The notes below the pieces were generated by a model that saw only the letters and a program-made list of their open reading frames with translations, was not told the DNA's origin and searched no databases. A DNA stretch of 64,000 bases from Hyphomicrobiales bacterium (GTDB lineage: Bacteria > Pseudomonadota > Alphaproteobacteria > Rhizobiales > Rhizobiaceae), in contig UBPA01000023.1 of NCBI GenBank assembly GCA_900467185.1, positions 186,001 to 250,000 of the forward strand. The letters run 5' to 3'. The position numbers were made by a program, and so were the translations under genes. Shown here one piece after another: positions 5,761 to 56,977 of this stretch (position 1 is its first letter; each line of letters starts with the position of its first letter).

Positions 5761-5823
5761 ATCCCCTCCCGGATCGATCGCAGCCAGCCGTTCCCCTCTG
5801 GCGGTTCATCCTTCACGCCTTAA

Positions 5824-5853
5824 GGCCGCGGGTCACCCTGCGGCCCTTTTTTT
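5824..5853 (+). terminator. Rho-independent terminator
   Basis: GGCCGC (5824-5829) pairs with GCGGCC (5840-5845), with GGG/CCC continuing the stem inside, followed by seven T from 5847. An almost identical terminator lies at 37870-37898 in the same position ahead of the intact sister gene. Confidence 0.75.
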
Positions 5854-5922
5854 AAGGGACAGCGAGAGCCGGCGCCGGGCAGGGGCCTGGACGTCGAGGA
5901 ACACATCAATCAGGAGGGTGGC

Positions 5923-37669: not shown

Positions 37670-37869
37670 GCATCCCGGCTGGAATGAAATAGCGCCGAAG
37701 GGGCGCGGGTTAGATGAAAATATCACATCCACCCGTTCCGACAGCGTCTCCCGTCTTTGAACCCGCTGACATAACGGGTCATTCTGATATTGGTTGACTG
37801 CCCTCATCCTCTTCCCGGATCGATCGCAGCCAGCCGTTCCCCTCTGGAGGTTTAACCTTCATGACTTGA

Positions 37870-37898
37870 GGCCGTGGGTCACCCTGCGGCCCTTTTTT
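37870..37898 (+). terminator. Rho-independent terminator
   Basis: GGCCGTGGGT (37870-37879) pairs with ACCC-t-GCGGCC (37881-37891), one G-U and one bulge, followed by six T. It closes the catabolic operon ending with the UPF0303 gene and insulates the AhpD-like gene that follows. Confidence 0.75.
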
Positions 37899-43590: not shown

Positions 43591-44820
43591 ATGACCGGCG
43601 AAACCCAGAAGCCGCTCCTCCTTTCCAATGTCAGGCCGATGGCCTTCGGCCAGTCCGAATCCAGCCCTGCCGGCAACCTTGGAGCCGATGGAACGACCGA
43701 CATCCTCATCGGTGCAGATGGTCGTATCGCGGCCATCGGCCAGGGGCTCGCGGTGCCCGGCGGCACGGAGCGCGTCGATGGAAAAGGCGCGTGGATGTCC
43801 CCCGGCTGGATCGATCTTCACGTTCACATCTGGCACGGGGGCACCGACATCTCGCTGCGTCCGTCCGAATGCGGCGCCGAGCGCGGCGTGACCACGCTGG
43901 TGGATGCAGGATCTGCCGGTGAAGCGAACTTCCATGGCTTCCGGGAATACATCATCGAGCCCTCGAAGGAACGCATCAAGGCGTTTCTCAATCTGGGTTC
44001 GATCGGGCTCGTTGCCTGTAACCGTGTCGCTGAACTCCGCGACATCAGGGATATCGACCTCGACCGGATCATCGAGTGCTACGCCGAGAACAGCGAGCAC
44101 ATCGTCGGCATCAAGGTGCGCGCGAGCCACGTCATCACCGGGTCGTGGGGCGTAACCCCGGTCAAGCTTGGCAAGAAGATCGCCAAGATCCTAAAGATCC
44201 CGATGATGGTGCATGTCGGCGAACCGCCGGCTCTCTACGACGAGGTGCTCGAAATCCTCGGCCCGGGCGACGTGGTCACGCACTGCTTCAACGGCAAGGC
44301 CGGCTCGAGCATCATGGAGGACGAAGACCTATTCGATCTCGCTGAGCGCTGCGCTTCCGAAGGCGTGCGGCTCGACATCGGCCACGGTGGGGCGTCCTTT
44401 TCCTTCAAGGTGGCGGAAGCGGCGATCGCGCGCGGGTTGCTGCCGCATTCGATCTCGACCGACCTTCACGGCCATTCGCTCAACTTCCCCGTCTGGGATC
44501 TCGCGACCACCATGTCGAAGCTGCTCTCCGTCGGCATGCCCTTCGACAAGGTCGTGAATGCCGTCACGCATGCGCCGGCCGACGTTATCAAGCTTTCTAT
44601 GGACGACAGGCTTGCCGTCGGCGCGCGGGCGGATTTCACCATCTTCGACCTCGTCGATGCCGACCTCGAGGCAACCGACAGCAATGGCGACGTCTCGCGC
44701 CTCACCCGCCTGTTCGAGCCGCGTTTCGCCGTCATCGGTGCCGAGGCGATCACGGCTAGCCGATACATTCCGAGAGCCCGCAGGCTCGTGCGCCACAGCC
44801 ACGGTTACGCGTATCGCTGA
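43591..44820 (+). CDS. COG3964-type amidohydrolase/deacetylase
   Basis: A 409-residue amidohydrolase-superfamily enzyme of the group containing EF0837 and Atu3266. Metal-site residues are the HxH of DLHVHIWHGG, the lysine of VGIKVRASHV (likely carboxylated), the His of MMVHVGEPP, the His of VTHCFNGKAG and the Asp of STDLHGHS. Members were long mislabelled dihydroorotase; some hydrolyse N-acetyl or O-acetyl compounds in vitro, as I recall. It begins one base after the permease stop region (TGACATG). In this operon it may deacylate the imported compound before the PLP enzyme acts. Confidence 0.88.
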   Translation: MTGETQKPLLLSNVRPMAFGQSESSPAGNLGADGTTDILIGADGRIAAIGQGLAVPGGTERVDGKGAWMSPGWIDLHVHIWHGGTDISLRPSECGAERGVTTLVDAGSAGEANFHGFREYIIEPSKERIKAFLNLGSIGLVACNRVAELRDIRDIDLDRIIECYAENSEHIVGIKVRASHVITGSWGVTPVKLGKKIAKILKIPMMVHVGEPPALYDEVLEILGPGDVVTHCFNGKAGSSIMEDEDLFDLAERCASEGVRLDIGHGGASFSFKVAEAAIARGLLPHSISTDLHGHSLNFPVWDLATTMSKLLSVGMPFDKVVNAVTHAPADVIKLSMDDRLAVGARADFTIFDLVDADLEATDSNGDVSRLTRLFEPRFAVIGAEAITASRYIPRARRLVRHSHGYAYR

Positions 44821-44851
44821 GGCCGACAAACTGCATGACACAGGAGTTCTC

Positions 44852-45349
44852 GTGACACATCTTTCCACCTTCGCCGATCCGAAGACGACCACGCCCTATC
44901 AGCGCCTGGCCGACCTCGGCATCGAGCTTCCGCCCGCACCGCCGCCCATCGCCAATTTTCTGACCCATGTGATCGAGGGAAACATGCTGTATCTCTCGGG
45001 GCAGGGGACCCGCGAGGCGGACGGGCGCATGCGCACCGGCAAGGTCGGCGCCGAGATCAGCACCGAGGCGGCCTATGACGATGCGCGTCTGGTCGGCATC
45101 AACCTCATTGCCGTGATGCACGAGGCCCTTGGTGACCTGTCGCGCGTGAAGCAGGTGGTGAAGCTGCTCGGAATGGTCAACGCCGCACCGGAGTTCCGGG
45201 ATCACCCCAAGGTCATCAACGGCTGCTCGGACCTTATCAACGCTGTCTTCGGGGAGGCCGGTCGGCATGCCCGGTCGGCCGTCGGCTTCGGCTCGCTGCC
45301 GGGCAACATCACGGTGGAAATCGAAGCCATCGTGGCGCTCAAGGATTGA
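44852..45349 (+). CDS. RidA (YjgF/UK114) family protein
   Basis: A 165-residue Rid protein. The conserved arginine lies in ARSAVGFGSLPGNITVEIEAI, matching the catalytic Arg of RidA, which hydrolyses reactive enamine/imine intermediates released by PLP enzymes. It is longer at the N-terminus than E. coli RidA. GTG at 44852, five bases after AGGAG, is the chosen start. Being between an amidohydrolase and a PLP-enzyme gene, it likely clears an unstable dehydratase product. Its last 11 bases overlap the 3' end of the IclR gene on the other strand. Confidence 0.85.
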   Translation: MTHLSTFADPKTTTPYQRLADLGIELPPAPPPIANFLTHVIEGNMLYLSGQGTREADGRMRTGKVGAEISTEAAYDDARLVGINLIAVMHEALGDLSRVKQVVKLLGMVNAAPEFRDHPKVINGCSDLINAVFGEAGRHARSAVGFGSLPGNITVEIEAIVALKD

Positions 45350-46193
45350 TGCCGTGAGGAGACGTTCCGTGCTGCCGCCAGCCCATCAGGGCCTCGATCC
45401 GCGCCGCCGAAGCCTTTACACGGTCGGCATAGCCGGCCTTGTCGGCAAAGGCCTTCTGTTCGGGAAGGACGATGGAGATGGTCGCAACGCAGTTGCCGTT
45501 GCGATCGACGATGGGCGACGCAATGCACGCAACCGCATAGTCGGATTCACCGGCCTGGATGGAGAGCCTCTCTTCGAACGCCGTGCGCGCAGCATCCGAC
45601 AGGGTCTCGGCATCCACCGCCGCGCGGCCGGTCGGCGACATGCGGGCACCACGCCGGAAGAGTTCGACGCGCTCGGCTTCCGGCATATGCCCGACGAGCA
45701 GCCGGCCGGAGGCCGTCCAGTTGAGCGGCACGCGGGTGCCGACCCGCGATGCGACCTGGAAATGGCTCGGCCCGTCAGCCATGGCGAGCACCAGCATGTG
45801 CTCTGCATCGCGACCGCAGACCTGCACCGTCTCACCGGCATCCCGGCAGAGGTCATGCATTTCCTGCGTGGCGACGCTCATGAAATCCAGCGAACGGGCA
45901 TAGGCAAGGCCGTAGTGGTAGAGCCTGGACCCCAGCCACAACGTGCCGTCGCCATTCCGAGCAAGCATGTTTTTTTCCACAAGGTCGTCGATGATGACAT
46001 AGACCGTGGAGAGCGGCGCGCCGACAGCCTTGGCAATGGCGTAGGCGCCGGCCGGGGCACCCGTCTCGTAGAGATGATCGATAACCTGAAGAGCCCGGTC
46101 GATCCCGCTGACGCGCGAGCGGCGCACGCTCTTTTCCGTGGTTTCGGAAACCGGTTCCGAGGCTTGCCTGTTCACAACAATCGTCCCGCACAT
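45339..46193 (-). CDS. IclR-family transcriptional regulator
   Basis: A 284-residue regulator. The N-terminal winged helix is SGIDRALQVIDHLYE...YAIAKAVGAPLSTVYVIIDDLVEK (about 29-85), followed by the IclR effector domain with LNWTASGRLLVGHMPE and the VACIASPIVDRNGNCVATISI ligand region. It lies inside the importer/amidohydrolase cluster but on the opposite strand, diverging from the SelA-like gene, so it probably controls both directions. Its start is 92 bases from that of the SelA-like gene. Confidence 0.9.
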   Translation of the reverse strand: MCGTIVVNRQASEPVSETTEKSVRRSRVSGIDRALQVIDHLYETGAPAGAYAIAKAVGAPLSTVYVIIDDLVEKNMLARNGDGTLWLGSRLYHYGLAYARSLDFMSVATQEMHDLCRDAGETVQVCGRDAEHMLVLAMADGPSHFQVASRVGTRVPLNWTASGRLLVGHMPEAERVELFRRGARMSPTGRAAVDAETLSDAARTAFEERLSIQAGESDYAVACIASPIVDRNGNCVATISIVLPEQKAFADKAGYADRVKASAARIEALMGWRQHGTSPHGINP

Positions 46194-46202
46194 CCGTCCT
46201 GT

Positions 46203-46224
46203 CTATTGCAGTATTATGGCATAG
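46203..46224. promoter_or_regulatory. Imperfect inverted repeat in the iclR / SelA-like gap
   Basis: CTATTGC (46203-46209) and GGCATAG (46218-46224) are near-complementary arms (five of seven pairs) ten bases upstream of the IclR start. It has the same 22-bp size as the repeat at 40097 but a different sequence. A weak operator candidate. Confidence 0.25.
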
Positions 46225-46284
46225 GCTCTGAAAGAGCAAGAGATGCCCGCGCCGTCACGACGTCGCGCAGCCTGGAGAATGACC

Positions 46285-47481
46285 ATGTCCGCTGATATCC
46301 GAACGACACTCGGCCTTCGCCCCGTGATCAACGTATCGGGAACGATGACGAGCCTTGGCGCGTCGATCGTCGTGCCGGAGGCCATCGCCGCGATGACGGC
46401 GATCCTGCCGCATTTCGTGGAGATCAACGCGCTGCAACGTCAGGCAAGCGCGGTGATCGCTCGCATGACCGGCGGGGAGGCGGGCTTCATTACGGCGTCG
46501 TGCTCCGCCGGCGTGAGCCTTGCCGTCGCCGGAACCATTACGGGGCCTGATCTCCTTGCGATCGAGCGGCTGCCGGAAACAAACACCGAGAAGAACGAGG
46601 TGCTCCTGCAGATGGGGCATGTCGTCAGCTACGGCGCTCCGGTCGATCAGGCCATCCGCATCGCGGGTGGCAAGGTCGTCATGATCGGCCAGGCGACATC
46701 GACGCATCGCTATCACATGGAAAATGCCATCACCGAGAGGACCGCAGCGGCCGTCTACGTCGTGTCGCATCATGTCGTCGACTACGGTCTGCTGAACCTA
46801 AAGGAATTCGTCGAGATCGCCCATGCGAGAGGCGTCCCGGTGATCGTGGATGCGGCATCCGAATACGATCTGAAAATCTTCCTCGCGCAAGGAGCCGATA
46901 TCGCACTCTATTCGGGCCACAAGTTTCTCGGGGGCCCCACCTCCGGCATCGTTGCCGGTCGAAAGGATCTGGTCCGCAACGCCTTCCTCCAGAACATGGG
47001 CATCGGGCGTGGCATGAAGGTCGGTAAGGAGAGCATCTACGGCGCAATGGCGGCGCTGGAGGCATGGGAGACGCGCGATCACGCGGGTATCCGGGCTCGG
47101 GAAGCAGGCGCTCTCGCGCTCTGGAAGGAAGCGCTCGACGGCCGCCCCGGCGTCATCGCGCTGATCGAACCCGATCCGACGGACAACCCGCTCGACCGCA
47201 TGCGTGTGATCATCGATCCACAGGAGGCGCATATCACGGCCTGGGACCTTGCCGCAGCGCTCCGATCGGGCGACCAGCCGATCATCGTCCGGGATCACGA
47301 GGTCGAGCACCGCTATTTCTACCTCGATCCGTGCAATCTGCATCCGGGTCAGGAGCATATCGTCGCCACCCGGCTCGCTGAGGAACTCGACAAGGCGCGT
47401 GCCTCCAACGCGATGATCGCAACCCCGATCGAAGACCTCAGCCGTCACCGCTTCGACGGGATGCTGCGCTGGCCGGACTGA
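46285..47481 (+). CDS. SelA-like PLP-dependent enzyme (EF_0838/DgaE-type)
   Basis: A 398-residue aminotransferase-fold enzyme. The PLP lysine is K213 in [13 protein letters not shown], and the aspartate of [12 protein letters not shown] would bind the pyridine ring. It belongs to the group that includes D-glucosaminate-6-phosphate ammonia-lyase and the partners of COG3964 amidohydrolases, which eliminate ammonia from amino acids or amino-sugar acids. GGAG is seven bases before ATG at 46285. Its pairing with RidA fits an enamine-forming elimination. It is not selenocysteine synthase: no selenium genes are nearby. Confidence 0.85.
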
Positions 47482-47519
47482 CCGCGGCAACCGAACAGAA
47501 CGAGCGGAGACGAGAAACG

Positions 47520-49379
47520 ATGGGAATGATCATGACGACGCAACAGGCCCACACCCGTCAGACCACGCCGCCAGAGGCGCAACCGGTGCTCTCCGTCGAG
47601 GCGCTGCGAACGTCGTTCCGCGTCGATGGCGCGTGGAAACCAGTCGTCCGCGATATCTCCTTCACCATCGCGCCCGCCGAGACCGTGGCGATCGTCGGCG
47701 AGTCCGGGTCCGGCAAGAGCGTCACGTCGCTGTCGATCATGCGGCTTCTCCAGCCCGATACGAGCCGCATCGAGGGTCGGGTCATGTTGGGGGGCCGCGA
47801 TCTCCTATCCTTGCCGGAGCCGGAGATGCGCAAGGTGCGCGGCAACGATGTCGCGATGATTTTCCAGGAGCCGATGACCAGCCTCAATCCGCTGTTCACG
47901 ATCGGCGACCAGATCTCGGAGGCGATCCTCTGCCACACGGCGATGAGCAAAGCGGACGCGCGCGCCGAAACCGTGCGCATCCTTGAGAAGGTTCGTATTC
48001 CCTCGGCGGCCTCGCGCTTCGACGACTATCCGCATCGCTTCTCCGGCGGCATGCGGCAGCGCGTGATGATCGCGATGGCGCTCGCGACCAAGCCGAAGCT
48101 GCTGATCGCCGACGAGCCGACGACGGCGCTCGACGTGACGATCCAGGGGCAGATCCTCGATCTCATCCGGATGTTGCAGGACGAGGAGGGGACCTCCGTC
48201 CTGTTCATCACGCATGACATGGGCGTGGTCGCCGAGATTGCCGACCGGACCGTCGTCATGTATCGCGGCGAGCAGGTGGAAACGGGACGCACAACCGACA
48301 TCTTTCACCGGGGCCAGCATCCCTACACCCGCGCGCTTCTGTCCGCCGTGCCCGTGCTCGGTGCCATGCAGGCCTATCGCCGGCCCTTGCGTTTTCCAAC
48401 GGTCGATCCGGCGACCGGACTGTCCGCCGTCCCGGTCGAAGTCGCCGATACCGTCATTGCCTCAGGCGAGCCGATCCTGCAGGTCCGCAACCTTACCAAG
48501 CGCTTCGACATCCATACCGGTCTTCTCGGCAAGGTGAGCGGGCGTGTACATGCGGTCGAAAACGTCTCCTTCGACCTGCGCGCCGGTGAAACCCTGTCGC
48601 TGGTCGGCGAATCCGGATGCGGCAAGTCTACGACGGGACGTGCCATTCTCCGCCTGATCGAGCCAAGCAGCGGTTCGGTTCTCGTCGAGGGCCGCGAGGT
48701 TCTGACCCTTCCGAGGCGCGACCTGCGCGAGATGCGCAAATCCGTGCAGATGATCTTTCAAGATCCGTTCGCCTCGCTCAACCCGCGCATGACGGTGGGA
48801 GCCGCGATTGCCGAACCGTATCTCGAGCACCGGCTGGGCAGTTCGAAGGAGGCAAAAGCGATGGTCGCCGATCTTCTGGAGAAGGTCGGCCTTACCCCGG
48901 ACATGGCGTCGCGTTATCCGCACGCGTTCTCCGGCGGCCAGCGCCAGCGGATCTCGATCGCGCGTGCGCTCGCCCTCTCTCCCAAGATCATCGTGGCGGA
49001 TGAGAGCGTTTCGGCACTCGATGTCTCGATCAAGGCGCAGGTCATCAACCTGATGCTCGACTTGCAGCAAAGCCTCAACCTTGCCTTTCTCTTCATCAGC
49101 CATGACATGGCCGTCGTGGAGCGCGTCAGCCACCGTGTCGCCGTCATGTATCTGGGAGAAATCGTGGAGATCGGGCCGCGGAGCGCGGTCTTCGGCAATC
49201 CTCAGCATGCCTATACGAAGAAACTGATGTCCGCCGTGCCGGTTCCGGATCCCGACCGTCGGCGTGAGACGCCGATGGCCGCAGCCGATGAACTGAGGAG
49301 CCAGATCCGCCCTGCAGATTACGTGCCGGTGCAGCGGGAATTCCGCGTCGTTTCCGAGGGGCACCTCGTCGCCACCTAG
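47520..49379 (+). CDS. Fused double ATPase of peptide-type ABC transporter (DppD-DppF/GsiA type)
   Basis: A 619-residue protein with two complete ATPase domains. The first (about 20-270) has [31 protein letters not shown] and THDMGVV; the second (about 315-560) has [35 protein letters not shown] and SHDMAVV. Each is followed by an oligopeptide-type C-terminal segment ([28 protein letters not shown]). It powers the DppB/DppC-like channel encoded at 41.8-43.6 kb, separated here by the enzymatic genes. Walker B of the second half ends DES instead of DEP, common for GsiA-type halves. Confidence 0.93.
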
Positions 49380-49872
49380 ACCAGGTCAGTGATCGAGCGT
49401 CGACGATATCGTGCTAGTCGGCGATGGACGTCTTGGCTTGCAGCGCCTTTCCACCCAGCACGGACGTTAGGCGAGCCTTCGGCAGCTTATGACCTTGGGA
49501 GTTGAGTGCCTGCCTGATCCGCTTGACGTGGTTTTGACAGAGATGGCGATCTCCCCACAAAAGTGCTGAGCGACGGACGGGAGTGGTCGTTCGCTGGGCT
49601 CGTGCCCTATCCATGACACCAACCATCTTGATCGGCTTAAGTGGGAACAGTCTGAGAGCTGTCCGGCAGGCAACGCGCATCGTCAACAATGTACACCGGC
49701 ACGACACAACACGCCGCGCATCGCGATTGAAGTATTTTCAATTCTGCGGCTCTGGAGAGATTTTTTCCAAAAACCGATGGTAATCCCATTCTCTGTAGGA
49801 AAATAACTCCACTGATTGGAAGACTGTTTCTTTGACGGACAGAAAATCTACCCATAGCCTTGAACCGCTTCA
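49380..49872. other. Intergenic region, no gene recognised
   Basis: No open frame with convincing coding character; base composition is more A+T-rich than the flanks. A 17-bp inverted repeat ATTGAA-N5-TTCAAT lies at 49726-49742, about 130 bases upstream of the LacI-PfkB gene, and may be a regulatory site. Confidence 0.4.
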
Positions 49873-51066
49873 ATGGTCGAGGAAATGATGAAAAAGGGCC
49901 GTCCCACCATTACGGATGTTGCACGTGCCGCCGGTGTCTCCGTTGGCACCGTGTCCAATTTTCTCAATGGGACAGTGCCGGTCAAAGCCGAAACTGCCGA
50001 TAGAATTCACGCAACCATCCAGAAGCTCGCCTATCGTCCAAGCGTGTTCGCGCGGTCGCTGCCGATGATGTCCGCCCGCAAAGCCAAGGCGTCCGAGGGT
50101 AATCCCCGGCTTCTCGTCGTTGGTCACATCTGCGTCGATTACCTCTGCCGCGTTCAGGTCCTGCCCCATCGCGACGACCGCGTGGCGGCAAGACACATCG
50201 ATAAGGCGCTGGGTGGCCCGGCTGCCAATCTTGCGGTTGCCGCTGCCGCCGTCGGTTCGCCTTACGGGTTGCAAGTCGATCTCGCCACGTCAGTCGGCGA
50301 CGACGCCGATAGCGAGTGGGCAATGGCTGAACTGCTGGCCCACGGCGTCAACGTGTTGCCGATCCGGCGGCCGAGCAAGAACCGACTGCCGCGAGCGATG
50401 GTGATCATCGAGGCCAACGGCGGCCGTACGATCATTCACGAGACCTTCGAGCTCACTGAGGTGGACCTCACCGCCAACATGGATATCGCGCCCGGTTCAG
50501 TGCGGTCGTGCCTGCACATTGAAGGGTTCCATTATGAACGAATGATGCCGTCGATTGCACGCTTCCACGCAGCGGGTTGGAATGTGAGCCTTCACGCCGC
50601 CGGCCTGCCCGAAGGATCGCGCAATCCGGACGCCTTCGAGCGGCTGATCGAGCAGATTGATCTGACCTTCATCAACGACGACACGCTGCGGGACATCTAC
50701 GCGATCCGCACGCCGCTCGCCTCGATGATTGAGGAGGCGGCGCGGACGATCGCGCGAGTCAAGCGGCGCGGTGATGTGGTGCTGACGCTTGGTGAATTTG
50801 GGGCTGTCGTCTTCCGCAAGAGCGGCGGCCCGCCGATCGAAGTGCCGGCGCTGCCGGTCAGCCGAGTCGATGCGACCGGTGCGGGCGATGCATTCGCCGG
50901 AATTTTTCTGAGCCTCTGGCTGAATGGACAGGCACTGGTCGATTGCGCACGTCACGCCGCGGTCGGCGCCAGCCTGACCACCACCTCCGAAGGCGCGCAG
51001 GCCCGCACAGCCAGAGCGCAGGAACTCGAAACACTCCTTTCTGCCGTCGAGGCAAAGGCCGGATGA
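49873..51066 (+). CDS. LacI-type DNA-binding domain fused to PfkB-family sugar kinase
   Basis: A 397-residue two-domain protein. Residues about 8-63 are a full LacI-type DNA-binding head: TITDVARAAGVSVGTVSNFL, then TADRIHATIQKLAYRPS and the hinge-helix-like FARSLP. From about 78 to the end is a PfkB/ribokinase fold (LLVVGHICVDYLCRV, KALGGPAANLAVAAAAVG, VLTLGEFGAVVF, VDATGAGDAFAG) with the catalytic base at D339. The periplasmic-binding-like domain that normally follows a LacI head is absent and replaced by the kinase. It could phosphorylate a sugar or nucleoside and use substrate occupancy to control DNA binding. It heads a ribose/AI-2-type importer operon, its probable target. This architecture is uncommon. 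Confidence 0.9.
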   Translation: MVEEMMKKGRPTITDVARAAGVSVGTVSNFLNGTVPVKAETADRIHATIQKLAYRPSVFARSLPMMSARKAKASEGNPRLLVVGHICVDYLCRVQVLPHRDDRVAARHIDKALGGPAANLAVAAAAVGSPYGLQVDLATSVGDDADSEWAMAELLAHGVNVLPIRRPSKNRLPRAMVIIEANGGRTIIHETFELTEVDLTANMDIAPGSVRSCLHIEGFHYERMMPSIARFHAAGWNVSLHAAGLPEGSRNPDAFERLIEQIDLTFINDDTLRDIYAIRTPLASMIEEAARTIARVKRRGDVVLTLGEFGAVVFRKSGGPPIEVPALPVSRVDATGAGDAFAGIFLSLWLNGQALVDCARHAAVGASLTTTSEGAQARTARAQELETLLSAVEAKAG

Positions 51067-51104: not shown

Positions 51105-51890
51105 ATGATAACGAAGGTTTTGTTGGTAGGAGAGAGCTGGGTCAGCTCGGCAACCCATTACAAGGGTTTCGATCAGTTCGGGAGCGTGACCTTCCATCTC
51201 GGCGCCGAACCGCTGGTCGCAGCCCTTCAGGGCGAAGAGTTCGAGATCACTTACATGACGGCGCATGACTGCGTCGAAAAGTTCCCCTTCACGCTTGAAG
51301 GTCTTTCCGAATACCAGGTCATCCTGCTGTCCGACATAGGGGCGAATTCGCTGCTGCTGCCGCCTGCTGTATGGCTGCACGGCAAGCCGGTTCCCAATCG
51401 CTTGAAGATCATCCGCGAATGGACCCAGGCCGGCGGCGGGCTTGTCATGGCAGGGGGCTATTTCTCCTTCCAGGGCATCGACGGCAAGGCCCGCTGGCGG
51501 CGTACGCCTGTGGAAGAGGCTCTGCCCGTCACCTGCCTTCCCTATGACGACCGACTGGAAGTTCCGGATGGCTTTCATGCCGTCGTGACCGGGCCAAAGG
51601 ACCATCCGATCCTACAAGGCATCGAAGGACAATGGCCGCTGCTTCTCGGTGCAAACGAGGTTGTCGCCAAGGAAGGCGATAGCATCGAGGTGCTTGCGAC
51701 GCTGCCGGAAGAGGAGGGTGGTCATCCGCTACTCGTCACCGGCAGCTACGGCCGGGGCCGCACCGTCGCCTGGACCTCTGATATCGGGCCGCATTGGGTT
51801 CCGAACGAGTTCGTCGCCTGGGCTGGATACGCGACGATCTGGAAGAACATTCTTCGCTGGGCGGCCAATACAGCTGGCACGGCCAAGTGA
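51105..51890 (+). CDS. Glutamine-amidotransferase-like (GATase1-like, DUF1355) protein
   Basis: A 261-residue protein with a class I amidotransferase-like / ThuA-like fold: KVLLVGESWVSSATHYKGFDQF at the start, LSDIGANSLLLPP, WTQAGGGLVMAGGYFSFQGI and a C-terminal GRGRTVAWTSDIGPHW. No nucleophilic cysteine is seen in the GGGLVMAGGYFSF elbow, so amidotransferase activity is doubtful. AGGAGA precedes the ATG. Members of this group often sit beside sugar ABC importers in rhizobia. Role unknown. Confidence 0.75.
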   Translation: MITKVLLVGESWVSSATHYKGFDQFGSVTFHLGAEPLVAALQGEEFEITYMTAHDCVEKFPFTLEGLSEYQVILLSDIGANSLLLPPAVWLHGKPVPNRLKIIREWTQAGGGLVMAGGYFSFQGIDGKARWRRTPVEEALPVTCLPYDDRLEVPDGFHAVVTGPKDHPILQGIEGQWPLLLGANEVVAKEGDSIEVLATLPEEEGGHPLLVTGSYGRGRTVAWTSDIGPHWVPNEFVAWAGYATIWKNILRWAANTAGTAK

Positions 51891-51918: not shown

Positions 51919-52692
51919 ATGACCGTTCCATTCCTGCGCGCAACCGGGATCACCAAACGCTTCGGCGCGCTTACAGCACTGAAGGGTGTCGATCTCGACA
52001 TCAACTGCGGCGAGGTTCTGGCGCTTCTCGGCGATAATGGTGCCGGAAAGTCTACGTTCGTCAAGATCCTAGCCGGTGCGCATCCTCAGAGTGACGGCGC
52101 GTTTTTGGTCGAAGGCGAGCCTGTTCGCTTTGCCTCGCCCAAGGACGCGGCGAGCTCCGGAATCGCGACGATCTTTCAGGAACTGGCATTATCGGAGAAC
52201 CTGTCGATCTCGGAAAATGTCTTTCTTGGACGTGAACTCAAGCGCTCTGTGCTTGGTGTTCCGTTTCTGAAGCGGAAGACGATGCGCGACCGGGTGGATG
52301 GCCTGCTGCACGAATTGGATGCACATATTTCCGATCCGGAAGCGCCTGTCGGCAGTCTTTCGGGAGGCCAGCGCCAGGCGGTGGCGATCTGCCGCGCGCT
52401 CAACCTAAACGCGAGGCTCGTCATCATGGATGAGCCGACGGCGGCGCTCGCCGTCGCTGAAACCCGCAAGGTGCTGCAGCTGACGCGCAAGCTTGCCGAA
52501 CGAGGCTGCGCTGTCGTCCTGATCAGCCACAACATTGCCGATGTCTTTAAGGTCGCCGACCGCATGGTCGTTTTCCGCCGCGGTCGAAAGGTCGCGGAGC
52601 GGCAGAAAGATGAAACTAGCCCCGAAGAAATCGTCTCTCTCATCACAGGCGCTCATCCCGACGTGCGAGCGCTTGAACAAAACAGCCAATAA
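51919..52692 (+). CDS. ABC transporter ATPase, single-domain ribose/xylose type
   Basis: A 257-residue ATPase with Walker A GDNGAGKST (about 38-46), Q-loop TIFQELALSE, signature LSGGQRQAV, Walker B LVIMDEPTAAL and H-loop SHNIADVF. It is half the length of RbsA/XylG of E. coli, which carry two ATPase domains; single-domain versions are common in rhizobia. The start at 51919 is eight bases after AAAGGA and at the family's usual beginning. It serves the permeases at 53.7-55.7 kb. Confidence 0.92.
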   Translation: MTVPFLRATGITKRFGALTALKGVDLDINCGEVLALLGDNGAGKSTFVKILAGAHPQSDGAFLVEGEPVRFASPKDAASSGIATIFQELALSENLSISENVFLGRELKRSVLGVPFLKRKTMRDRVDGLLHELDAHISDPEAPVGSLSGGQRQAVAICRALNLNARLVIMDEPTAALAVAETRKVLQLTRKLAERGCAVVLISHNIADVFKVADRMVVFRRGRKVAERQKDETSPEEIVSLITGAHPDVRALEQNSQ

Positions 52693-52722: not shown

Positions 52723-53709
52723 ATGTTTTCCAAACTCAAGACAATTCTCGCCGCATCTGCAGTGACGCTTGCGCTTGGCTCGTCCGCTTTCGCGCAAGAC
52801 AAGCCGAAAGTAGCCTTCGTTCCTCAGCTGATCGGAATTCCCTACTTCAACGCCATGGAAGCCGGCGGCAAGCGCGCTGCTGAAGATCTTGGCGTCGACT
52901 TTATCTATTCCGGCCCGGTCGATACCAATCCAGTTGACCAGCTGCAGATTGTCCAGAACCTGATTGACCAAGGTGTCAGTGCCGTGTCCGTCAGCGTGCT
53001 CGACGCATCCGCTATCGCACCGGTCGTCGAGGCCGCCAAGGCAAAGGGTGTCAAGCTCTTCACCAGCGACAGCGACGCTCCTGACAGCGGCCGTGCCGTC
53101 TATGTCGCCCAGGCAACCGACGAAGGTCTCGGCACCACCATCATCGACGAAATGGTCAAGCGCGTCGGCGAAGATGCCAAGATCGGCATCGTCTCGGGTG
53201 AGGCCACGGCCTCCAACCTCAACGCCTGGATCGGCTTCATGCAGAAGCGAGCGAAAGAGAAGTATCCGAAGCTCACCCTTCTTGAGCCGCAGTTCGCCGG
53301 CGGCACGGCACAGCGTGCGGCACAGATCGCTGGCGACCTGATGACCGCAAACCCAGACATCAAGGGCATCATTGCGGTCGCCTCCTCCACATGCCCGGGC
53401 GTCGCTCAGGCGATCGAAACAGCCGGCAAGATCGGCGCGGTGGTTGGTACGGGCTATTGCAGCCCGAATACTGCGCGATCCTACCTCAAGAGTGGTTCCT
53501 TCGGCTTCTCGGTGCTCTGGGATCCGGCGCAGCTCGGCTATTTGACAGTCTGGGCCGGCAAGCAGCTGATAGACGGCAAGCCGTTCGCGGCTGAAAACGT
53601 TGTGAAGGGCTTCGCCTCGCCGGTCACTTACGATGCCGGTAGCGGCATCCTGCTGCTTGGCCCTCCGGCCGTCTTTACCGCCGACAATGTCGACAAGTTC
53701 GACTTCTAA
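52723..53709 (+). CDS. ABC transporter sugar-binding protein (LsrB/ribose type)
   Basis: A 328-residue periplasmic binding protein of the Peripla_BP_4 group. The signal peptide is 1 to about 24 (ILAASAVTLALGSSAFA). The mature part begins KPKVAFVPQLIGIPYFNAME, with sugar-contact regions ALxxDSDAPDS and TGYCSPNTARSY; overall closest to AI-2 (LsrB) and rhamnose-type binding proteins. AGAGAGG lies ahead of the ATG. The ligand could be a pentose, a nucleoside or an AI-2-like compound; the sequence alone does not settle it. Confidence 0.9.
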   Translation: MFSKLKTILAASAVTLALGSSAFAQDKPKVAFVPQLIGIPYFNAMEAGGKRAAEDLGVDFIYSGPVDTNPVDQLQIVQNLIDQGVSAVSVSVLDASAIAPVVEAAKAKGVKLFTSDSDAPDSGRAVYVAQATDEGLGTTIIDEMVKRVGEDAKIGIVSGEATASNLNAWIGFMQKRAKEKYPKLTLLEPQFAGGTAQRAAQIAGDLMTANPDIKGIIAVASSTCPGVAQAIETAGKIGAVVGTGYCSPNTARSYLKSGSFGFSVLWDPAQLGYLTVWAGKQLIDGKPFAAENVVKGFASPVTYDAGSGILLLGPPAVFTADNVDKFDF

Positions 53710-53727
53710 GGCTGGATGTAATTTGTG

Positions 53728-54705
53728 ATGCGACAGTCAAGTCCACGTCTTCCTGCCATCGGCGGACGTGAAGGGGCGCTGCTTGGCGCCGTCATTCTCG
53801 CCTCGATCGTCTTTTCTGTCGCGTCACCCTATTTCGCGACGGTAGGCAATGCCACGACCATCGCCCGCAACAGCACCGAGTTGATGCTGGCTGGTCTCGG
53901 CATGACCCTGCTCCTCGCTATGGGCAGTATCGACGTTTCCATTGGCATCCTCATGGGCCTTGCCGCCATCGCCGTCGCCCATGCTCTGCTGGCATCGGTT
54001 GCACCGGCACTCGCCCTGCTTGTCGGGCCGGCGGCGGGTGCAGCACTGGGCCTCGTGACGGCGCTGGTCGTCGTTCTCGGCCGCGTGCCGGCAATCGTCG
54101 GCACGCTTGGCCTCCTCGGCGTCTATCGCATGGGGGTCTTCGCACTTCTCGGCGGGCAATGGCTTTCTGGCCTGCCCGTCGGCCTCACGCAGCTTCTGTC
54201 CGCCACCGTGCTCGGCCTTCCCATGTCGATCTTTGCGATCGGGCTTGCCTATCTGGCGGTGTGGCTGGCGCTTCGCCGCACGCCTTACGGCCCGCATCTG
54301 CTTTCGATCGGAAATTCAGAGGAGAAAGCGCGGCTCTCCGGCGTGCCCGTCAGCAAAGTCCGGATCGCCACCTTCATCATCAGCGGCGCTCTGACCGGAC
54401 TGGCCGCAAGCTTCTATGTCGCAAACTATCGTAACGTCGAAATGGCCATTGGCAGCACGCTGGCCCTCGATGCGATCGCCGCGGTTGTGCTCGGCGGCAC
54501 CAGCATCATGGGCGGGCGCTGCAGCCTTCTCGGAACCGCACTTGGCGTCATCCTCCTGCGCATCCTGCAGAACGGCCTGCTGCTGATGGGTGTGCCGTCG
54601 CTCTGGCAGCCTGTCGTGACCGGCGCTCTGCTGATCGGCGTGCTCGCGCTTGAACTGCCGGCCTCACGCATGGGTGAATTCAAGGCAAGGTGGATGCAGC
54701 GATGA
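53728..54705 (+). CDS. ABC transporter permease (RbsC/LsrC type)
   Basis: A 325-residue permease of the branched/ribose type with 8-10 predicted spans. It includes GLGMTLLLAMGSIDVSIGILMGL, the RVPAIVGTLGLLGVYRMG helix, and LDAIAAVVLGGTSIMGG. ATG at 53728 is preferred over the GTG three bases upstream. Its stop overlaps the next start (ATGA). Confidence 0.9.
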   Translation: MRQSSPRLPAIGGREGALLGAVILASIVFSVASPYFATVGNATTIARNSTELMLAGLGMTLLLAMGSIDVSIGILMGLAAIAVAHALLASVAPALALLVGPAAGAALGLVTALVVVLGRVPAIVGTLGLLGVYRMGVFALLGGQWLSGLPVGLTQLLSATVLGLPMSIFAIGLAYLAVWLALRRTPYGPHLLSIGNSEEKARLSGVPVSKVRIATFIISGALTGLAASFYVANYRNVEMAIGSTLALDAIAAVVLGGTSIMGGRCSLLGTALGVILLRILQNGLLLMGVPSLWQPVVTGALLIGVLALELPASRMGEFKARWMQR

Positions 54706-55658
54706 AACACCTTCTAAAACGCTCCGGCTCCAGCCGCATCCTCCTGCTTCTCGCCGTGTTGTGGATCGCCGTCATCTTCCTTTTCGCGGCGCTCAGGCCG
54801 TCGATGTTCAGCGCATCGACGGTGACGACTGTCCTGCAATTCTCGACTATCCTTGCCCTTGTCTCGCTCGGCCAATGCCTCGTCATTCTGGCCGGCGGTG
54901 CCGGTATCGATCTGTCGGTCGGTGGCACTGTATCGCTGTCGGTGGTGCTGGCTATGCTTGCGATCAAGGCCGGCATGCCGCCGGCACTGCTGCCGGTCGC
55001 CTGCGTCGTCTTCGGGCTACTGCTCGGCTTGCTCAACGGGCTATTGGTCACCTGGCTGAAGATCCTGCCGCTGATCGCGACGCTCGGCACGCTGTTCGTC
55101 TATTCGGGCATGGCTCTGGCGCTGACCGGCGGTGGAGCCCAATCGGGCGTGCCGACCTGGTTGCTCCCCTGGGGCAGGGGGATGATGCTGTCGCTGCCTA
55201 TGCCGTTCGTGACGTTGGTGGTGCCCGTCTTCGTCATTGCCGCAGTGCTCCTTCTCTACAGTGCATGGGGTCGGTGGCTGTTCGCCATCGGGTTCAACGA
55301 GCGCTCGGCGCGCCTTGTCGGCATTCCCGTCGATCGCGCCCGGCTTCTGGTCTACGGTCTCAGCGGTCTGCTTGCCGGCCTGGCGGGGCTTGTCTCGATC
55401 GCGTGGCTCGGAAGCGCGAGGCCCAATATTGGGCAAAACCTGGAGCTTGAATCGCTGACCGCGGTGATGCTCGGCGGAGTCGCCATCACTGGCGGTATCG
55501 GCGGCGTAGGCGGCGTGATCGCCGCCGTCATCCTGCTCGTCACACTGAAGACCGGGCTCCTGCAGCTCAACGTCAACTCTGTCTGGCAGGTCGGTATCGT
55601 TGGCGCGCTTCTGATCGCCGTCCTGCTTATCGAACGTCTTTCAAAACGCTGGAGTTAA
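54702..55658 (+). CDS. ABC transporter permease (RbsC/LsrD type)
   Basis: A 318-residue permease partner with the conserved LVILAGGAGIDLSVGG, LPLIATLGTLFVYSGMALAL and LTAVMLGGVAITGG segments. It starts at ATG 54702 overlapping the previous stop; a GTG at 54690 would add four residues. Together the two permeases and the ATPase form a complete importer. Confidence 0.9.
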   Translation: MKHLLKRSGSSRILLLLAVLWIAVIFLFAALRPSMFSASTVTTVLQFSTILALVSLGQCLVILAGGAGIDLSVGGTVSLSVVLAMLAIKAGMPPALLPVACVVFGLLLGLLNGLLVTWLKILPLIATLGTLFVYSGMALALTGGGAQSGVPTWLLPWGRGMMLSLPMPFVTLVVPVFVIAAVLLLYSAWGRWLFAIGFNERSARLVGIPVDRARLLVYGLSGLLAGLAGLVSIAWLGSARPNIGQNLELESLTAVMLGGVAITGGIGGVGGVIAAVILLVTLKTGLLQLNVNSVWQVGIVGALLIAVLLIERLSKRWS

Positions 55659-55660
55659 TT

Positions 55661-56977
55661 ATGCCATCCATTGAACAACAGATCTCAGACTGTGTCGAGG
55701 CAGCGCAGGAGCGGATTGTCCAGACGCTGAGCGACCTCGTCGCCTTCCCGTCCGTTGTCAAGTCGAACCCGAAGGAGGCCGGTCCGGGCGAGCGGGACTG
55801 CCAGCGCTACCTGCAGACGCGGCTTGAAGCGATTGGCTTCACCACAGATCTCTGGGATCCGGACGGTCCGGCTCTCTATGCCAAATATGAAGGACGCCCC
55901 GGCGCCAACAAAGGGCGTACCTTTGAGGGACGCCCCAATCTCGGGGGTACGCTGAAGGGAGCTGGCGGCGGCCGCTCGATCATGCTGACCGGCCATATCG
56001 ACGTCGTGCCACCCGGTGCCGCCGAGCATTGGACGACCGATCCGTTCGTGCCGGTGCTAAAAGACGGCTTCCTGCATGGCCGTGGGACCGTCGACATGAA
56101 GGGCGGTGTCGCCTGCATGCTGATGGCGGTCGAGATCCTCAAGGAGATGGGTTTAGAGCTGAAGGGCGATGTCGTCTTCACCACCGTGGTCGACGAGGAA
56201 ATCGGCGGCATGGGCTCCCTCGCCATGGTTGATCGCGGCTTCAAGGCCGACGCCGGCATCATGACGGAGCCGACCGCTAACCGCATCGCGCCGCTGTGCC
56301 ACGGCATTCTCTGGGGCAGGATCATCATCGACGGGATCGGTGGCCATGCCGAGCTGACGCCGAATTCCTGGTACACGAGCGGCCCGGTCGATGCTGTACA
56401 ACTCTGCCGCCAGATGCTCGACGGCATCGACATCCTCAACCGTCGCTGGATGTTCGACCCCAAGAAGAACCATCCCCTGATGGACCTGCCGAACCAAATC
56501 ATCGTCACCCAGATGACTGCCGGCGAGCACCCGTCGTCGATGGCCGGTCGTGCCGAGATCATCATCGACGCGCAATACTTGCCGAGCGAAAAGGACGAAT
56601 TCGCCCTTGGCGGCCATGTAAAGCGCGAGATCGAAGAGCATGTCCGCAACGTCTGCCAGGCAGATCCCTATCTGCGTGAGCATCCAGCCCGCGTTGAGTG
56701 GATCCTCGATGCCGATTGCGCCGAGATCCCAGCCGACAGCCCGTTCGTGACGATCTTTCAGCAGGCGGTGGAGATGGCGGACCTATCGCCGAAACTCTCC
56801 GGCTTCGGTGCACATAGCGATATTGGCCTGCCAACGGGACTTGGCAACACGCCGACAGTCAATTTCGGACCCGGCGATCCGGCCCAGGCGCACCAGCCAA
56901 ACGAACGCGTCGCGGTTCGCGACCTCATTGACTGCACGAAAGCTATTGCGCTAGCGGTGCAGAAGTGGTGCAACTGA
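55661..56977 (+). CDS. M20-family metallopeptidase (ArgE/DapE/ACY1 type)
   Basis: A 438-residue cytoplasmic zinc amidohydrolase. Active-site residues are visible: His and Asp of LTGHIDVVPPG, Asp of GRGTVDMKGG, the catalytic Glu of TVVDEEIGGMG, Glu of MTEPTANR and His of GFGAHSDIGLP. The dimerisation/lid domain is present at about 210-330. It would hydrolyse an N-acyl bond of an amino-acid derivative. It begins two bases after the permease stop, so it belongs to the importer operon and suggests that the imported compound carries an acyl-amide. Confidence 0.92.
   Translation: MPSIEQQISDCVEAAQERIVQTLSDLVAFPSVVKSNPKEAGPGERDCQRYLQTRLEAIGFTTDLWDPDGPALYAKYEGRPGANKGRTFEGRPNLGGTLKGAGGGRSIMLTGHIDVVPPGAAEHWTTDPFVPVLKDGFLHGRGTVDMKGGVACMLMAVEILKEMGLELKGDVVFTTVVDEEIGGMGSLAMVDRGFKADAGIMTEPTANRIAPLCHGILWGRIIIDGIGGHAELTPNSWYTSGPVDAVQLCRQMLDGIDILNRRWMFDPKKNHPLMDLPNQIIVTQMTAGEHPSSMAGRAEIIIDAQYLPSEKDEFALGGHVKREIEEHVRNVCQADPYLREHPARVEWILDADCAEIPADSPFVTIFQQAVEMADLSPKLSGFGAHSDIGLPTGLGNTPTVNFGPGDPAQAHQPNERVAVRDLIDCTKAIALAVQKWCN

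Follow-up and report, generated by a model that had tools for sequence, protein, structure and literature searches.

What does a protein do that carries the DNA-binding head of a LacI-type regulator on a sugar kinase? In LacI, the textbook repressor, the core that senses the sugar also pairs the two heads. In the window analysed here (the whole stretch of DNA, 64,000 nucleotides) an open reading frame on the forward strand (49873–51066, open throughout, 397 amino acids) encodes in a single frame a LacI-type helix-turn-helix (HTH), a hinge region and a complete PfkB (ribokinase-fold) domain. The earlier note had described the protein as such a fusion on the basis of its letters, and the profile searches confirmed it, with the Pfam LacI model (PF00356) matching ORF residues 12–57 at 53.7 bits (cut-off 27) and PfkB (PF00294) matching residues 79–377 at 110.6 bits (cut-off 25.8). 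The usual sugar-binding domain of LacI proteins is indeed missing, as had been noticed: no Pfam match to Peripla_BP, the periplasmic-binding-protein-like ligand core, was obtained in the fusion protein, and PfkB stands in its place. Both the FARSLP hinge motif and the Asp of the DATGAGD motif (D339 in ORF numbering) were found where the note had placed them. The NCBIfam model nearest to the kinase part is ribokinase, far under its cut-off (101.9 vs 299.65 bits). The two annotated database records examined name the gene only as a PfkB family carbohydrate kinase, so that a likely regulatory role has been missed by annotation.

The open fusion frame stands as first reported, and it is the start that probably has to be moved, to 49888. 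In the orthologues a conserved R-P-T follows within a few residues of the start (MKKGRPT in 14 of 16 aligned rows, other short starts in the rest). As the first five residues of the ORF are not conserved among them, a GAGGA (49879–49883) precedes ATG 49888, and ATG 49873 has one base in common with the operator O1 described below, the start is most likely ATG 49888, which yields a protein of 392 residues. Residues are numbered from this position hereafter, and D339 thus becomes D334. The gene and its parts are the following.

49888–51066, + strand: LacI-head/PfkB fusion gene (likelier start, 392 residues; reported ORF from 49873)
49900–50058, + strand: LacI-type DNA-binding head (residues 5–57; recognition helix 19–27 in the model)
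50044–50091, + strand: hinge region SVFARSLP.. (residues 53–68; helical in the model, pLDDT about 55)
50107–51003, + strand: PfkB/ribokinase-fold domain (residues 74–372)
50674–50676, + strand: N263, the Asn of the NXXE motif (here NDDT)
50869–50889, + strand: DATGAGD loop, with D334 as the expected catalytic base

A search for the same architecture elsewhere returned complete single-frame fusions in 28 distinct Rhizobiales loci including the window, many of them close relatives (the other 27 at 53–93% identity), and in Roseivivax marinus (40.0% identity), which rules out a frameshift, a start error or two separate genes as the origin of the fusion. The set of 28 drops duplicates (L001, L070 and L071), truncated copies (L024:8001–8630, L025:8073–9778 and L053:9001–9579, the last of which is not followed by transporter genes) and the Roseivivax locus (L051). 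Scanning the genome contigs turned up 23 loci, comprising 15 complete fusions (66–93% identity), two partial copies (L024 and L025) and six others, five with a match to the kinase only and one to the head only. Among 215 plasmid records with a match, four reached at least 80% query coverage; three of these are the fusions of R. etli 8C-3 (91.6%), Rhizobium WYJ-E13 (74.1%) and Roseivivax marinus (40.0%), the fourth being a Deinococcus ribokinase whose match begins at residue 52. A partial copy is present in two further plasmid records of equal length. The fusion was matched in 10 of 394 genomes of the family sample (E ≤ 1e-30) and 4 of 397 of the order sample (1e-40), own genome included in both, in the own genome alone among 385 of the class sample (1e-40), and in the own genome and one other (G298) among 398 of the phylum sample (1e-25); within the genus, one of six other genomes carries it. 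No fusion outside the Alphaproteobacteria was found in this phylum sample of 398 genomes, at strict thresholds and with few candidates scored per genome. This patchy occurrence, sometimes on plasmids, indicates that the fusion is probably mobile.

Is the head still in use? The ratio pN/pS, pooled over all pairs of the 28 loci, is 0.25 for the head, 0.29 for the kinase, 0.79 for the linker and 0.63 for the tail; pS lies near saturation (0.61–0.67), which makes the individual values rough and leaves the contrast between domains and linker clear. Judged from these ratios, purifying selection acts to a similar degree on head and kinase and much less on the linker. Within a set of residues of our choosing, Val17, Ser18, Gly20, Thr21, Ser23 and Asn27 of the head are identical in all 29 rows, Roseivivax included, and so are Asp84, Leu108–Asn114, Asp328 and Thr330–Asp334 of the kinase; the GAGD sequence (the GXGD loop with the catalytic Asp) is likewise present in 29/29. 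Ala55, Arg56 and Leu58 of the hinge are found in 28 of the 29, Roseivivax being the exception (28/28 Rhizobiales). The conserved Ala and Leu of the LacI-family hinge have a functional role. That the head is a functionless vestige of an accidental fusion is hardly conceivable in the face of its low pN/pS, its six invariant residues and the conservation of the operators.

A closer look at the aligned upstream regions of the intact Rhizobiales orthologues showed the pattern TTGAANCGNTTCAA directly before the start, and a second palindrome built of the same half-sites farther upstream.

49860–49873, no strand assigned: O1, TTGAACCGCTTCAA, LacI-type predicted operator with a CG centre, right before the start
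49727–49741, no strand assigned: O2, TTGAAGTATTTTCAA, palindrome with the half-sites of O1 and a 5-bp centre

O2 sits 132.5 bp upstream of O1, and a search of the whole window for TTGAA N4-5 TTCAA returns these two sites only. Both are found upstream of 28/28 intact Rhizobiales fusions; since a pattern was used to locate the sites, conservation of the fixed columns is built in and the evidence lies in the counts. In the own genome (5.04 Mb) the O1 pattern, with 12 fixed bases, and TTGAAN5TTCAA for O2, with 10, occur once each (reversed controls, 0 and 0). A wider regulon was considered and rejected, as in the own genome neither site is present besides the fusion locus. The O1 pattern is present in all 11 fusion genomes and in 2 of 14 genomes without the fusion, the latter within chance given that the reversed pattern occurs in 7 of these 14 (and in 0 of the 11). 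The extra O1 sites, placed within a long frame in G374 and beside another gene in G1106 (an O1-like TTGAACCGGTTCAA at L088:3867–3880), were not counted as evidence. The pair O2-N100..130-O1 was seen in 4 of 327 family genomes, all of which carry the fusion and have the pair at that locus (control 0/327); these four are the long-spacing carriers known in that sample, which has five further carriers whose short spacing the pattern was not meant to cover. Flanking columns across the 28 loci mostly hold less than 1 bit, with the exceptions of a T 28 bases before O1 (1.4 bits, within the TTGAC of the likely −35), a T after O1 (1.2 bits), and an A before and a T after O2 (1.4 and 1.6 bits), these last two extending the symmetry of O2.

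According to the available part of a survey of the LacI family (PMC4052901), 1251 of 1303 regulators use even palindromes, 1173 with a CG centre, and 4% use odd ones; spacing is usually constant within a regulator group, and autoregulation is seen in 72% of the regulators. O1, as a predicted site, fits this rule, and O2, with its odd spacing and an AT-rich centre in place of CG, belongs to the rare odd kind, so that by comparison with the groups covered there it would be unusual for one regulator to use both spacings. This constancy within groups (same source), together with the centre of O2 unlike that of O1, speaks for a different regulator acting at O2, with only O1 belonging to the fusion. 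We regard this as unlikely, while giving it some weight, because the two sites have identical TTGAA/TTCAA half-sites, are both kept in 28/28 loci and are unique in the genome. The truncated copies point both ways: L053 has an altered O1 and no O2, yet L024 retains both.

The distance between the centres of O2 and O1 is 131.5–135.5 bp in 22 loci and 84.5–95.5 bp in six, and the distances 84.5 and 94.5 differ by about one helical turn. Over the 28 loci the two classes share a common helical phase poorly (R 0.62 at 10.5 bp, 0.47–0.50 at 10.8–11.2), and looping between the sites is for this reason a suggestion only. Tetramers, which E. coli Pfk-2 forms with MgATP, were considered as a looping device. 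They were found neither in the available part of PMC7867265 nor in the literature search. In Roseivivax, where the fusion lies inside its run of genes, no site was found directly before the fusion gene. Upstream of the run lies TTGAAAAAATTCAC (L051:9200–9213), one base off the paired half-sites, which may be the cognate site there.

The direction of the regulation was approached through the promoter, whose candidate boxes were assigned by eye.

49832–49837, + strand: predicted −35 TTGACG, 17 bp ahead of the −10
49855–49860, + strand: predicted −10 TAGCCT, a weak match whose last base is common to O1

A strict promoter scan did not report these boxes. With boxes placed by eye, a weak −10 and a silent scan, it is the position of the site that argues for repression: O1, touching the putative −10, is in the place of a repressor site. 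The fusion could also be an activator that works from O2, with O1 secondary. O2 lies on the upstream side of the promoter region, a common place for activators, and both sites are conserved. This is very unlikely in our opinion, given that O1 touches the −10 assigned by eye, adjoins the start codon and has the form of a canonical LacI-type site, and that LacI-family regulators of such kind are mostly repressors. The conserved LacI-type sites, together with the purifying selection acting on the head, make DNA binding by it at the gene's own promoter very probable, and they lend support to the earlier proposal of one chain that should bind both DNA and sugar and control its own operon.

How would two heads be brought together on these sites without the LacI core? 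The structural model obtained from a more diverse alignment (pLDDT 81.4, against 67.1 for the first model) has helices at residues 8–15, 19–27 and 34–48 and a less certain one at 53–68, followed by a ribokinase fold from residue 74, hinge and linker being of low confidence. An alignment including a LacI row from L031 was set aside, as this row was scattered. The top Foldseek matches are ribokinases and sulfofructose kinase (the best a ribokinase, E 4e-21), with TMt values of 0.78–0.84 to 6znx_A, 9zpu_A, 7ag6_A and 1rka. Strands 82–89, 105–109, 169–175 and 180–184 of the model occupy what we read as the positions of the lid. PfkB kinases of this group pair through their lids, and the E. coli ribokinase dimer closes on the sugar with wide changes in its overall dimensions, as stated in the available part of PMC6240065. 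Behaviour of this kind would give the sugar a way to act on the spacing of the heads. Perfect palindromes imply two heads, and the presence of lid strands in the model is consistent with dimerisation through the kinase, which had been put forward from the letters.

The fusion gene is followed on the same strand by the genes of a sugar-type ABC transporter.

51105–51890, + strand: GATase1_like protein (PF07090), next gene of the operon
51919–52692, + strand: sugar-type ABC transporter ATPase (start from family matches; the ORF runs from 51649)
52723–53709, + strand: sugar-binding protein, RhaS/LsrB-like (under both family cut-offs)
53725–54705, + strand: ABC permease 1
54690–55658, + strand: ABC permease 2
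55661–56977, + strand: M20 ArgE/DapE-family deacylase, last of the conserved gene set

Upstream of the fusion, the unit at 44558–49379 comprises a RidA-like gene (by eye) and, by Pfam, a divergent IclR regulator, a SelA-like PLP enzyme and a fused dipeptide-type ABC ATPase; elsewhere in the window Rfam matches the small RNAs ar15 (37792–37897) and suhB/mmgR (5786–5860). Among the 29 loci examined (some of them the same genome twice), the 26 intact ones all have the fusion directly before transporter genes on the same strand; the other three are truncated. Two types of operon were distinguished. Type A, to which the window belongs, has the fusion, GATase1_like, ABC ATPase, binding protein, two permeases and the M20 deacylase (L079 is of this type without the GATase1_like gene). 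Type B (L021, L074–L078 and L080) has the fusion, ABC ATPase, binding protein, permeases and a second, headless PfkB kinase, and in L021 and L078, the loci scanned for it, also an IF-2B-family and a SIS-domain protein (the three genes at L021:12982–16019 and L078:13676–16624). The L078 kinase is nearest to the ribose-1-phosphate kinase model and the IF-2B-family protein to ribose 1,5-bisphosphate isomerase, both below cut-off, and the set is a possible uncharacterised sugar pathway. In Roseivivax a ribokinase gene comes right after the fusion. In L009 (438–4123), and similarly in L011, L013, L022, L024 and L053, another sugar-type ABC ATPase and permease are found no more than about 8 kb from the fusion, along with a GATase1_like paralogue (69–71% identity to that of the window).

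The two types differ at the NXXE motif, which binds magnesium in the ribokinase family (available part of PMC5931981). Its Asn is kept in the fusion in 21/21 type A rows, whose operons have no second kinase, and lost in 6 of the 8 rows with a companion kinase (five Gly, one Ser; kept in L021 and L075), these eight loci being related and thus standing for few events. The companion kinase itself keeps the Asn in 7/7 checked, the Roseivivax companion lying outside this set. None of the 29 fusions or of the 7 companions shown has the final Glu; its lack alone says little, since the companions lack it too, and the motif is not strict, as sulfofructose kinase reads SEPG at the aligned position. In the window the motif reads NDDT, with the Asn kept and the Glu absent, and its own operon yielded no second kinase gene. 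A dead kinase in the window was considered and is unsupported, GAGD and N263 being kept, though the Glu is absent. The loss of the Asn in 6/8 suggests that a fusion beside a headless kinase is purely or mainly a sensor. These data also bear on the alternative that the fusion works chiefly as an active sugar kinase and uses its head just to adjust its own expression, ligand regulation being minor. The invariance of Asp328 and Thr330–Asp334 and of the Asn in the operons without a second kinase favours such an enzyme; the head, however, shows as much constraint as the kinase, all 28 intact loci have the operators, and beside a second kinase the fusion stays while the Asn is mostly lost, which makes this alternative quite unlikely.

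Taken as a whole, the best explanation, and in our judgement a probable one, is that LacI heads paired by PfkB act on O1 and O2 as a sugar-released autoregulator, likely a repressor, of the fusion's own sugar-ABC operon. The fusion protein would be a local autoregulatory transcription factor in which the PfkB dimer joins two LacI-type heads, and the heads would bind O1 at the promoter and start region, with a second dimer, or the same assembly, binding O2 and helping. The transported sugar or a derivative would enter the kinase pocket, and the sugar-bound dimer would change shape and with it the spacing or orientation of heads and hinges, so that the heads let go and the operon is released. 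In operons without a second kinase, where the NXXE Asn and GAGD are kept, phosphorylation of the ligand by this domain may in addition remove the inducer; in those with a separate headless kinase, the fusion would be mainly a sensor. From the single-chain feedback switch of the earlier note we retain the binder of DNA and sugar at its own operon, consistent with sites and selection, and the likely kinase dimer; the feedback idea is plausible, and the proposed resetting of the switch by catalysis would probably not be general.

A more tentative reading joins these elements further, and we would sooner expect it to fail in some part than to hold entire. The PfkB dimer would do the work of the LacI core, with the spacing of the heads set by the bound sugar, perhaps also by ATP; this spacing would let one regulator use operators with 4- and 5-bp centres, O2 and O1 would be looped together, and the operon types would form a series from enzyme to repressor, in which the headless kinase of the sister type allows the fusion to give up catalysis and act purely as a sensor. 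The core of LacI has apparently been swapped for a metabolic enzyme, the conserved sites make the switch directly testable, and the two operon types may show stages on the way from enzyme to sensor.

With the LacI family the fusion shares the head, the hinge residues, an even CG-centred predicted operator (O1) and a single local pair of sites in the genome; it differs in having a PfkB kinase instead of the ligand-binding core and in its odd-spaced second site. From ribokinase and sulfofructose kinase, with which it has in common the fold, GG..AN, GAGD and lid strands, it is set apart by the added N-terminal DNA-binding head and by NDDT for NXXE. Our literature search, most subscription journals being beyond its reach, brought up no account of a PfkB kinase with a LacI head, and "fused" or "fusion" has no occurrence in the available main text of the LacI survey (PMC4052901). 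The uncharacterised E. coli YeiI (b2160) also has an N-terminal HTH followed by a PfkB domain, but its winged HTH_24 is of another family than the LacI HTH found here. We know of no operator for YeiI. BLASTP aligned only a short piece of the two proteins (E 0.002), and YeiI has GADD where the fusion has GAGD. In the available parts of the respective papers, YeiI is an uncharacterised sugar kinase (PMC12506659) and is placed among hypothetical transcription factors (PMC6055005). HTH-PfkB fusions are thus already known from YeiI, and LacI-PfkB is a new form among enzyme-based regulators. In the ROK repressors, NadR, BirA and the Gram-positive PurR, an enzyme or enzyme fold combined with an HTH serves as a sensor, with other enzyme folds and other HTH types than those of the fusion. 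In the lsr system, the LsrK kinase, the LsrR repressor and an ABC transporter control the uptake of a sugar-like compound; the parts are those seen here, with a related binding protein, whereas kinase and repressor are separate proteins there.
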